This document shows, in pieces, positions 16,552 to 19,639 of a DNA stretch of 34,210 nucleotides. The notes under the pieces are model-generated. The model was not told where the DNA came from, searched no databases, and saw nothing but the letters and a program-made list of their open reading frames with translations. The translations under genes were made by a program, and so were the position numbers. Positions within the stretch are counted from its first letter, which is position 1. Each line of letters begins with the position of its first letter. The DNA comes from Erysipelotrichaceae bacterium (GTDB lineage: Bacteria > Bacillota_I > Bacilli_A > Erysipelotrichales > Coprobacillaceae): positions 1-34,210 of the forward strand of contig JAJQFG010000116.1 in NCBI GenBank assembly GCA_021201315.1. Reading direction: 5' to 3'.

Positions 16552-16581
16552 TTAAAAAAAGCTGTATCAATGATACAGCTT
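16552..16581 (-). terminator. Terminator of the lactate permease gene, abutting ispH
   Basis: AAGCTGTATC (16559-16568) pairs with GATACAGCTT (16572-16581), a 10-bp stem with a 3-nt loop. On the minus strand it is followed by seven T (16560-16554). It overlaps the permease stop codon and ends right before the ispH ribosome binding site. Confidence 0.8.
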
Positions 16582-18136
16582 ATCCAATTCCAAATATTGA
16601 CCAAATACCTTGTCCAAAGAAACAAATCAACATACTTATCACAATAAAGACAATTGCATAAGGAACAACTTTTCCTAGCAACTCACCATCTTTACCAGCT
16701 TCATTAACAGAAACCAATCCAATCGCAATACTTTGTGGTGCCATCATCTTACCAGTTGCTACACCTAAACTATTGGCTGCTACTAACCAATAAGGATTAG
16801 CATTAATTGTTTCTGCAATTGAATATTGGACAGAGCCAAATAATGCTGATGAACTAGTACCAGATCCTGTAACAAATGTTCCTAAAGCACCAAGAAGTGG
16901 GGCAAAGAATGGATAGAATGAACCAAATATTGAGAACAATGCAGCCACTGCACTAATCATACCAGAATATTGCATAACTCTTGCAGTTCCTAAAATAAAT
17001 AACATCGTCAAAACTGTAAAAGCCATTTGTTTTAATGTTGAAATAAAGACATTAACCATATCCTGAATCGTTGAATTCTGAATAAAACCACCAATAATAG
17101 CACAAATAAATATGAGCACACCAGGGGTATTAATCCATGAGAAACTTGATGCGCTTGCACTTTCGTAAGTTGAAATCTTAATCGTTGTTTTAAATTGTCC
17201 TAAGAAAGTATTGATAGGAGCACAAATCTTACTTGTAAGTAATAACACAACAAAGATAAGAATAAATGGTGATAAGGCTTTTAATGTATCACCTAAATTA
17301 ATATGTTCAGGTTTCTTCTTAACTGCAATCTTATATTCCTCAGGAATCTTATCCTTATTCACTAACTTCATACAAGCAAATACTGTACAAAACAGTGAAC
17401 AAACAGAACCAGCCACAACTGTTAATTCTGCTCCTACAAAATAAGAAACAATCAATTCAGGAATCAAAAAACTAAAACCACTAATCAATAATACAGGCAC
17501 AATTCCTTTAAAAGCTTTAAAACCTTTACCAATAATCATAACCATAATAAATGGTGTAATAATAATCAAAATACTTAAAATACAAACAGTTGCAAAACTA
17601 ATCAAATTATTTTGCATACCTAAATTTGTAGCTAATGTTACTGTAGGAATACCTATAGAACCAAAAGGCGTAGGTGTTGCATTAGCAACCAAACACACAA
17701 GACAAGCCGTAATCGGATCAAAACCTAACCCCCATAACATACTTGCTGGAATTGCTACTGCTGTTCCAAAACCAGCCATACCTTCCATAAAACCACCAAA
17801 ACACCATCCAATTAAAACAACTAATAATCGCTTATCATTTGTAACACTAGTAAGCAATAACTTAATTCTTTCAATTGAACCTGTTGATAAACACAAGTTA
17901 TAAGTAAAAACTGCTGCAATAATAACAATCACAATTGGCCATAACGCTGCTGCAAAACCTTCTAGCATCGATGTCATAGTATCTACAACTGAAAAATTGA
18001 AATAAGCTATCGCTTCAACAACTGCAATAAGTAATGCACCAAAACTTGCTTTATAGCCAGGCCATTTCATCCCACATAAAGAAATGACAAGCCAAATAAT
18101 CGGTAATAATCCTAATATAAAATTAACTATTAACAT
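16580..18136 (-). CDS. lctP: L-lactate permease (LctP/LldP family)
   Basis: About 518-residue integral membrane protein with some 12 or more hydrophobic segments along its length. It is a lactate:H+ symporter in known members, which also accept glycolate and both lactate stereoisomers. Family segments visible include GFGTAVAIPASML, ATPTPFGSIGIPTVTLA and GTFVTGSGTSSSALFG, plus the C-terminal MMAPQSIAIG. The internal ATG at 18136 is preferred because GGAGG lies at a suitable distance before it. That ribosome binding site would fall inside the coding region if ATG 18151 were used. It is divergent from the HPr-D-lactate dehydrogenase gene, which makes a joint role in lactate production and export or uptake likely. 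Confidence 0.9.
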   Translation of the reverse strand: MLIVNFILGLLPIIWLVISLCGMKWPGYKASFGALLIAVVEAIAYFNFSVVDTMTSMLEGFAAALWPIVIVIIAAVFTYNLCLSTGSIERIKLLLTSVTNDKRLLVVLIGWCFGGFMEGMAGFGTAVAIPASMLWGLGFDPITACLVCLVANATPTPFGSIGIPTVTLATNLGMQNNLISFATVCILSILIIITPFIMVMIIGKGFKAFKGIVPVLLISGFSFLIPELIVSYFVGAELTVVAGSVCSLFCTVFACMKLVNKDKIPEEYKIAVKKKPEHINLGDTLKALSPFILIFVVLLLTSKICAPINTFLGQFKTTIKISTYESASASSFSWINTPGVLIFICAIIGGFIQNSTIQDMVNVFISTLKQMAFTVLTMLFILGTARVMQYSGMISAVAALFSIFGSFYPFFAPLLGALGTFVTGSGTSSSALFGSVQYSIAETINANPYWLVAANSLGVATGKMMAPQSIAIGLVSVNEAGKDGELLGKVVPYAIVFIVISMLICFFGQGIWSIFGIG

Positions 18137-18236
18137 AAAGAACGCCTCCATAACAGTATTTTACAATATTTTAAGTCAAAGATACATATTTTTCTATATG
18201 TTTTTTGATAAAATATTTTTAAATAACGAAAAAGCG

Positions 18237-18255: not shown

Positions 18256-18285
18256 TTGAAAATATATAGAGATTTGTGATACAAT
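18256..18285 (+). promoter_or_regulatory. Promoter of the HPr-D-lactate dehydrogenase gene
   Basis: -35 TTGAAA (18256-18261), 18-nt spacer, -10 TACAAT (18280-18285). The ribosome binding site AGGAGG is at 18300-18305. Confidence 0.65.
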
Positions 18286-18311
18286 AAAACTATAAAATTA
18301 GGAGGTAAAAA

Positions 18312-19607
18312 ATGAAAGAACTTACTTATATTGTCAATAATCCATTAGGAATCCATGCCCGTCCTGCTGCTTTATTGGCTCAATGCTGTGTGAATTTTAA
18401 AAGTAGTGTAATTATTACATGCAACGGGGCAGATGCTAGTGGAGACAATGTCTTACAGATTTTAGCTTTGGGTGCTAAGAATGGAGATACTTTATCAGTT
18501 AAGGCTGAAGGCGAAGATGAAGATGAAGCAATTGCTGCAGTTGATAAGCTATTACATGGTGAATTTGAAGAAAAGAAACCTGTAAAAGTATTAAAGATTG
18601 CATTCTTTGGAACTAAGGATTATGATCGTACTTTCTTTAGTGAATTAGTTAAGGACAAGGGAGAAGGAACTTACAATTCAGATATTAAATATTTTACAAC
18701 TCGTTTAACTCCTGAAACTGCTGGTTTGGCTAAAGGTTATGATGCTGTTTGTGCATTCGTTAATGATGATCTTTCTCGTCCAGTTATTGAAACAATTCAC
18801 GAATGTGGTGTACGTTTAATTTTAATGCGTTGTGCAGGGTTCAATAATATTGACTTACAAGCTGCTAAAGAATGTGGTATTACTATTTTACGTGTACCTG
18901 CTTATTCACCTTATGCAGTTGCTGAACATGCTATGGCAATCGTTCAAGAAGCTAACCGTCGTTTACACAAAGCTCATAACAAAGTAAAAGATAATAACTT
19001 TGCTTTAAGTGGTTTATTAGGTTTAGACTTACATAACAAGGTTGCTGGTATTATTGGTACTGGGAAGATTGGCGTTTGTATGGCTAGAATTTGTAAAGGT
19101 TATGGTATGACTGTACTTGGTTGGGATGCTTATCCAAATCAAGCATTGGTTGATGAAGGTTTATTAACTTATGTAGAAAAAGAAGAATTATTTGCTAAAG
19201 CAGATTTGATTTCTTTACATGCACCTTTATTCCCTTCAACTTATCATATCATCAATGCTGAATCAATCGCTTTGATGAAAGATACAGCTATGCTTGTTAA
19301 TACTGCTCGTGGTGCTTTAATTGATAACGAAGCATTAATTGATGCCTTAAAACAAGGTAAATTCCATGCTGTAGCATTAGACGTTTATGAAGGTGAAGAT
19401 AATAACGTTTACACTGATAGAAGTGATGAACCATTAACTAATGATATTACAGCTCGTTTAATGATGTTCCCACAAGTTGTTTTAACAAGTCACCAAGCAT
19501 TCTTTACTAGAGAAGCATTACAAGCTATTGCTGTTGTAACAATGGAAAATGCTAGAAACTTCAACGAAGGTAATGACTACGGTAATGCAGAAGTAAAAGC
19601 TCAATAA
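18312..19607 (+). CDS. Fusion of HPr phosphocarrier domain and D-lactate dehydrogenase
   Basis: 431-residue two-domain protein. Residues 1-88 are a full HPr domain: GIHARPA places the phosphorylatable His exactly at position 15, and the fold aligns without gaps to B. subtilis HPr through LGAKNGD (53-59). Position 46, the regulatory Ser of Gram-positive HPr, is Asn here. After a short charged linker (84-93), KIAFFGTKDYD opens a complete D-lactate dehydrogenase of the D-2-hydroxyacid family. It has NAD motif GTGKIG (249-254), Asp272 for NAD preference, catalytic Arg333 (NTARGAL), Glu362 and His394 (SHQAFF). The likely reaction is pyruvate plus NADH to D-lactate. One strong ribosome binding site and an unbroken frame argue against a sequencing artefact. 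The lactate permease gene is divergent next door. The HPr part could accept phosphate from enzyme I and tie LDH activity or location to sugar uptake, which is an inference. Confidence 0.92.
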   Translation: MKELTYIVNNPLGIHARPAALLAQCCVNFKSSVIITCNGADASGDNVLQILALGAKNGDTLSVKAEGEDEDEAIAAVDKLLHGEFEEKKPVKVLKIAFFGTKDYDRTFFSELVKDKGEGTYNSDIKYFTTRLTPETAGLAKGYDAVCAFVNDDLSRPVIETIHECGVRLILMRCAGFNNIDLQAAKECGITILRVPAYSPYAVAEHAMAIVQEANRRLHKAHNKVKDNNFALSGLLGLDLHNKVAGIIGTGKIGVCMARICKGYGMTVLGWDAYPNQALVDEGLLTYVEKEELFAKADLISLHAPLFPSTYHIINAESIALMKDTAMLVNTARGALIDNEALIDALKQGKFHAVALDVYEGEDNNVYTDRSDEPLTNDITARLMMFPQVVLTSHQAFFTREALQAIAVVTMENARNFNEGNDYGNAEVKAQ

Positions 19608-19610
19608 TTT

Positions 19611-19639
19611 AAAACATGGAGATATCTCCATGTTTTTTT
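19611..19639. terminator. Bidirectional terminator after HPr-LDH
   Basis: A 26-bp perfect palindrome (19611-19636) centred on GATATC, with A-run before and T-run after, so it can stop transcription from both sides. It also serves the convergent YqfQ-like gene. Confidence 0.8.

Follow-up and report, generated by a model that had tools for sequence, protein, structure and literature searches.

A gene in which a phosphocarrier domain of the HPr family is joined to a complete D-lactate dehydrogenase was observed in an Erysipelotrichaceae bacterium (assembly GCA_021201315.1, contig JAJQFG010000116.1), within a stretch of 34,210 nucleotides that was analysed as a whole and is called the window here. 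The fusion is real, conserved and old, and a regulatory mechanism built on it is plausible: the HPr domain would act as an internal sensor through which the D-lactate dehydrogenase follows the phosphoenolpyruvate (PEP):sugar phosphotransferase system (PTS), and its phosphorylation state would set the activity of the enzyme, a reading given a probability of roughly 0.5. The frame runs uninterrupted through 431 codons, with no internal stops and no frameshifts, and its parts are as follows.

18312-19607, forward strand: HPr-D-lactate dehydrogenase fusion gene, 431 amino acids (open reading frame list, Pfam, recurrence)
18312-18566, forward strand: HPr domain, residues 1-85, with Pfam PTS-HPr at 4-81 (Pfam, alignment, fold)
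18354-18356, forward strand: His15, predicted enzyme I phosphorylation site (alignment; 53/53 fusions)
18447-18449, forward strand: Asn46, replacing the Ser46 of HPr kinase (alignment; Asn 49, Asp 3, Ser 1, n = 53)
18567-18590, forward strand: linker, residues 86-93, variable in sequence and nearly constant in length
18591-19604, forward strand: D-lactate dehydrogenase of the LdhA type, residues 94-431 (catalytic Arg333, Asp357, Glu362 and His394; NAD motif GTGKIG)

Both domains were matched in Pfam, PTS-HPr over residues 4-81 (E 3.8e-23), 2-Hacid_dh over residues 103-423 (E 9e-29) and 2-Hacid_dh_C over residues 210-396 (E 1.4e-50), and the unbroken frame bears out the first-pass annotation of the sequence, which had described an HPr domain and a complete NAD-dependent D-lactate dehydrogenase in a single frame. 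The HPr match lies well over the curated cut-offs, with 81.8 bits for PF00381 (cut-off 23) and 77.4 bits for TIGR01003 (cut-off 47.9). The HPr part aligned with solved HPrs without gaps; His15 and Arg17 are both there and position 46 is asparagine, as had been claimed for His15 and Asn46. The fold search with the model of the whole protein returned dehydrogenase matches only, and the HPr domain was then searched separately; residues 1-88 folded alone reached a predicted local distance difference test score (pLDDT) of 95, and the top fold matches were all HPr (Z 16-18), including the Bacillus subtilis HPr 1kkl_J at a root-mean-square deviation of 0.8 Å over 86 residues (Z 17.8).

The survey for the same architecture that had been proposed with the annotation recovered the fusion, nearly full length, in 70 of the 295 genomes sampled from the order, in two families and at 63-97% identity, with pieces only in four more. 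The named genomes with the fusion are Eggerthia catenaformis, Kandleria vitulina and Eubacterium pyruvativorans, alongside many uncultured gut and rumen bacteria, and no additional fusion host outside the order was detected in the samples of the class (395 genomes) and the phylum (392 genomes). The window genome is a draft of 136 contigs, which could suggest that an assembly or annotation artefact merged two genes; this was rejected because the same full-length frame is present in those 70 genomes and in named isolates, and because the junction is of nearly equal length in 53 distinct sequences, which come from many different assemblies and isolates. Recurrence across independent genomes thus already refutes the artefact, the probability of which is practically nil.

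A tree was built by a quick method from the dehydrogenase part without HPr, and in it the 55 fused sequences formed one clade against 73 unfused ones, with a support of 100 in the Shimodaira-Hasegawa-like approximate likelihood ratio test (SH-aLRT), and the fusion trait is explained on it by one change. A single fusion event is the simplest history, and the fusion probably arose once. Neither unfused members inside the fusion clade nor losses of the HPr domain were found in the sampled tree, and a single candidate for an unfused member (contig C77 of genome G284, length 5,100) was rejected as a fragment at a contig end. Eubacterium pyruvativorans belongs in the NCBI taxonomy to the class Clostridia, another class than that of the order, and 3 of the 149 genomes of its family contain the fusion (L080, L167 and L169, in G638, G711 and G717). 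These sequences are nested inside the fusion clade, indicating horizontal transfer as the probable route by which the gene reached E. pyruvativorans and two relatives.

Differential evolution was observed for the parts of the protein. Purifying selection acts on the HPr part: among close pairs, the ratio of nonsynonymous to synonymous substitution rates (dN/dS) was mostly 0.02-0.31 for HPr and 0.02-0.09 for the dehydrogenase, with the linker looser. Over the 53 distinct fusions, for which residue conservation was counted throughout, the mean identity to the protein of the window was 59% for the HPr part and 80% for the dehydrogenase part. This faster evolution of the HPr part is what would be expected if the domain were a structural or stabilising appendage conserved for folding instead of signalling. 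However, the invariant columns, 6 of 85, are mainly those of phosphotransfer and not mainly those of the core, four of them being Gly13, His15, Ala16 and Arg17, and an appendage is considered very unlikely. The invariance of His15 and Arg17, together with the purifying selection, fits real phosphotransfer by the domain. HPr kinase acts on Ser46, and the claim that this site is absent while the enzyme I site is kept holds for all but one of the fusions, 49 of the 53 having Asn46, 3 Asp46 and 1 Ser46, and all of them His15. In Escherichia coli HPr, the positions 17, 27, 46 and 47/48 have been treated in one study, and mutations of Arg17 reportedly impair the phosphocarrier function (PMC5320558).

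The dehydrogenase part displays the 2-Hacid_dh domains, the NAD motif and the catalytic Arg/Asp/Glu/His set of LdhA-type D-lactate dehydrogenases. None of the 53 distinct fusions deviates at Arg333, Asp357 or His394, and 52 of them have Glu362; with matching spacing, we take these four to correspond to Arg235, Asp259, Glu264 and His296 of the Lactobacillus enzyme. Among solved structures, the closest are D-lactate dehydrogenases from Fusobacterium, Pseudomonas, Salmonella and E. coli, which are 45-47% identical to this part. By homology, the fusion is predicted to reduce pyruvate to D-lactate, and certain relatives of such enzymes favour other 2-ketoacids (PMC4230899). Codon 94, the expected start of the former free-standing dehydrogenase, is TTA, CTG, CTC or CTT in 51 of the 53 fusions and ATG in 2; since it is none of ATG, GTG or TTG in those 51, a separate dehydrogenase is not expected, and the enzyme is probably made only together with its HPr.

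The separate ptsH and ptsI genes, which were to be looked for elsewhere in the same genome, are both present there: a normal HPr with His15 and Ser46, one enzyme I and one HPr kinase gene. Similarly, a stand-alone HPr was found in 49 of the 50 fusion genomes tested for it and enzyme I in 49 of 52, so the cell has another phosphocarrier besides the fused HPr. With a separate HPr and an enzyme I retained in almost all host genomes, the fused HPr is an extra, dedicated module. Such a module might be an auxiliary phosphocarrier, donating phosphate to a single sugar permease or regulator of its own, with the dehydrogenase as a passenger or dose coupler; the phosphocarrier active site is fully retained, and the loss of Ser46 would leave the domain chargeable while HPr kinase blocks the normal HPr. 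This is quite unlikely, since no gene of a PTS permease or regulator is a conserved neighbour of the fusion across 25 loci, a duplicated ptsH would serve without fusion (several relatives have extra stand-alone HPrs), and the fusion to one enzyme was never undone in the sample. Regarding the lactate flux, no match above the cut-off to the L-lactate/malate dehydrogenase family was found in the window genome and in 39 of the 52 fusion genomes, which suggests that the fusion is probably the enzyme carrying that flux; other 2-hydroxyacid dehydrogenases also occur, of which the closest shares about 35% identity.

The invariant phosphotransfer residues and the lost HPr kinase site point to a domain that serves as a substrate of enzyme I and thereby signals the state of PEP/pyruvate and of sugar uptake, as in the proposed sensor. 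Enzyme I charged by PEP would phosphorylate His15 of the fused HPr domain, and this phosphate would be drained when PTS sugar comes in or when the pyruvate/PEP ratio is high. The phosphorylation state would then alter how HPr docks, either on the dehydrogenase or on enzyme I, with a change in catalytic activity as the result, and with Ser46 replaced, HPr kinase could not overrule the switch. The unphosphorylated form, prevailing with plentiful sugar and rising pyruvate, would most likely be the active one, allowing fast re-oxidation of NADH during rapid sugar uptake. We infer the phosphorylation by enzyme I, its effect on activity and the sign of that effect as the most likely course, and unphosphorylated HPr is favoured as the form promoting lactate formation by analogy with the activation of Vibrio pyruvate kinase A by dephospho-HPr.

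Several observations weigh against this sensor. Three of the 53 fusions (L036, L072 and L079) have Asp46, and with the Ser46Asp replacement enzyme I phosphorylates HPr about 2000-fold less (PMC5320558), which together weigh against a uniform operation of the switch. A match to enzyme I is absent from 3 fusion genomes (G146, G711 and G717), possibly owing to incomplete assembly, and as enzyme I is present in 279 of the 295 genomes of the order, its co-occurrence with the fusion is uninformative. Moreover, the AlphaFold result is uninformative on the packing of the HPr domain against the dehydrogenase domains, and the case is made from sequence and models.

The surface of the fused domain would also suit an alternative reading. 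Residues near positions 47, 48 and 51 of HPr are part of the face that meets partner proteins. The fused domain shares with HPr (ptsH) the fold, His15, Arg17 and a gap-free alignment, but HPr is free, and at the partner face the fusion has Ala20, Gln24, Asn46, Val47, Leu48 and Leu51 where the canonical stand-alone HPrs of the lineage have Thr, Asn, Ser, Ile, Met and Met. The face of an HPr regulated by HPr kinase, or of a CcpA co-repressor, with Ser46 and Met48/Met51, is therefore replaced by Asn46, Leu48 and Leu51. The difference from stand-alone HPr is consistent, and the face positions 20, 24, 46-48 and 51 are highly conserved, as they would be if the domain served for docking and not for switching, tethering the dehydrogenase to enzyme I or to a membrane PTS permease, with phosphorylation controlling binding only. 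Enzyme I converts PEP to pyruvate, the substrate of the fused enzyme, and this pyruvate would be reduced on site. Yet docking has no obvious need for a His15 that is invariant in 53/53, and as pyruvate diffuses freely the gain is uncertain, so this alternative is considered unlikely. For the sensor itself, the full form in which the sugar-uptake phosphorylation state is covalently wired into the main lactate-forming enzyme of the lineage, replacing or adding to control by fructose bisphosphate and insulated from HPr kinase by the loss of Ser46, is held tentatively, at slightly under even odds.

Transient binding of HPr is a known means of adjusting metabolic enzymes, and HPr also occurs within longer polypeptides, as in FPr/FruB, DhaM and the multiphosphoryl transfer proteins (MTP), where HPr domains are fused to PTS partners (EIIA, enzyme I). 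In the fusion, the only domains found by Pfam besides HPr are those of a dehydrogenase, a partner outside the PTS; among these multidomain PTS proteins, a match to the DhaM model was the sole one seen in the searches. In Vibrio vulnificus, dephospho-HPr binds and activates pyruvate kinase A (PykA), lowering its Km for PEP (PMC5987630), and in E. coli, glycogen phosphorylase is a binding partner of HPr (PMC5320558); a structure showing this (PDB 9s8b) was among the fold-search results. As proposed for the fusion, HPr thus controls a metabolic enzyme in both, for PykA in a phosphorylation-dependent way at the pyruvate node, but it acts there as a free protein in trans, whereas in the fusion it is a covalent part of one enzyme and its effect would be exerted from within. 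On the dehydrogenase side, the D-lactate dehydrogenases of F. nucleatum (5z21), P. aeruginosa (5z20) and E. coli (LdhA) share 45-47% identity over the whole dehydrogenase and all catalytic residues with the fusion but lack an HPr domain. These enzymes are tetrameric and allosteric, those of Fusobacterium and Pseudomonas responding to fructose 1,6-bisphosphate (PMC4230899), and at this identity a tetramer with cooperative or effector-controlled kinetics is putative for the fusion as well.

Control of metabolic enzymes by HPr is therefore already known; what seems not to have been described is an HPr joined covalently to a dehydrogenase. In agreement with the first-pass annotation, which knew of no such enzyme, no description of the HPr-D-lactate dehydrogenase architecture was found in 5.39 million open-access papers, subscription papers and InterPro architecture tables lying outside this scope. 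Both active sites are kept across two families of the order, including the lactate producers Kandleria and Eggerthia; if the sensor is true, such cells may throttle lactate production by the rate of sugar import, which would tie sugar uptake directly to fermentation output in a way testable with one purified protein. The fusion is also of interest for how lactate is formed in the rumen, where the D-lactate dehydrogenase transcript of Sharpea azabuensis, an enzyme not confirmed by name as the fusion, is reported to be 12-fold higher in low-methane sheep (PMC5069950).

The signals around the gene and the adjoining gene in the window are as follows.

18256-18285, forward strand: promoter-like site TTGAAA-18-TACAAT, with TG ahead of the second hexamer (consensus match only)
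18300-18305, forward strand: ribosome-binding site AGGAGG, 6 bases 5' of the ATG (sequence)
19611-19636, forward strand: terminator, an 11-pair hairpin followed by a T run (-13.9 kcal/mol, z -5.6)
16580-18151, reverse strand: lactate permease of the LctP family, divergently transcribed (Lactate_perm, E 1.7e-123)

Translation starts at the ATG after AGGAGG, which is the beginning of the HPr domain. With its own promoter-like site, ribosome-binding site and strong terminator hairpin, the fusion gene looks like one transcribed alone; promoter-like sites in the region are no commoner than in shuffled sequences. The divergent lactate permease had been taken as part of a shared lactate module. As a neighbour it stands, but as evidence for such a module it is not supported, since the pair is kept only in 8 genomes of two genera, the genus of the window and one other; in the other genomes, with flanks of 1.5 kb or more, no lactate permease was detected adjoining the fusion, and across 25 loci no conserved operon or neighbour was found except this permease.

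Variation at position 46 was also observed among the stand-alone HPrs. Six of them (L170, L177, L178, L179, L180 and L184) combine His15 with Lys46 in a KKLL motif, so Ser46 has been lost outside the fusion too, and two more (L175 and L176) have Asn46 in a PKNI motif and are possible parallels to the fused domain. Crh resembles the fused HPr in being a paralogue specialised for a single arm of HPr signalling, but it has lost His15 and kept Ser46, the opposite of the fusion. Crh-like paralogues with Tyr15 and Ser46 (L171, L172, L173, L174 and L185), a mirror image of the fused HPr, were observed in Kandleria vitulina (G007) and in the genomes G011, G021, G025 and G044, all of which also contain the fusion.
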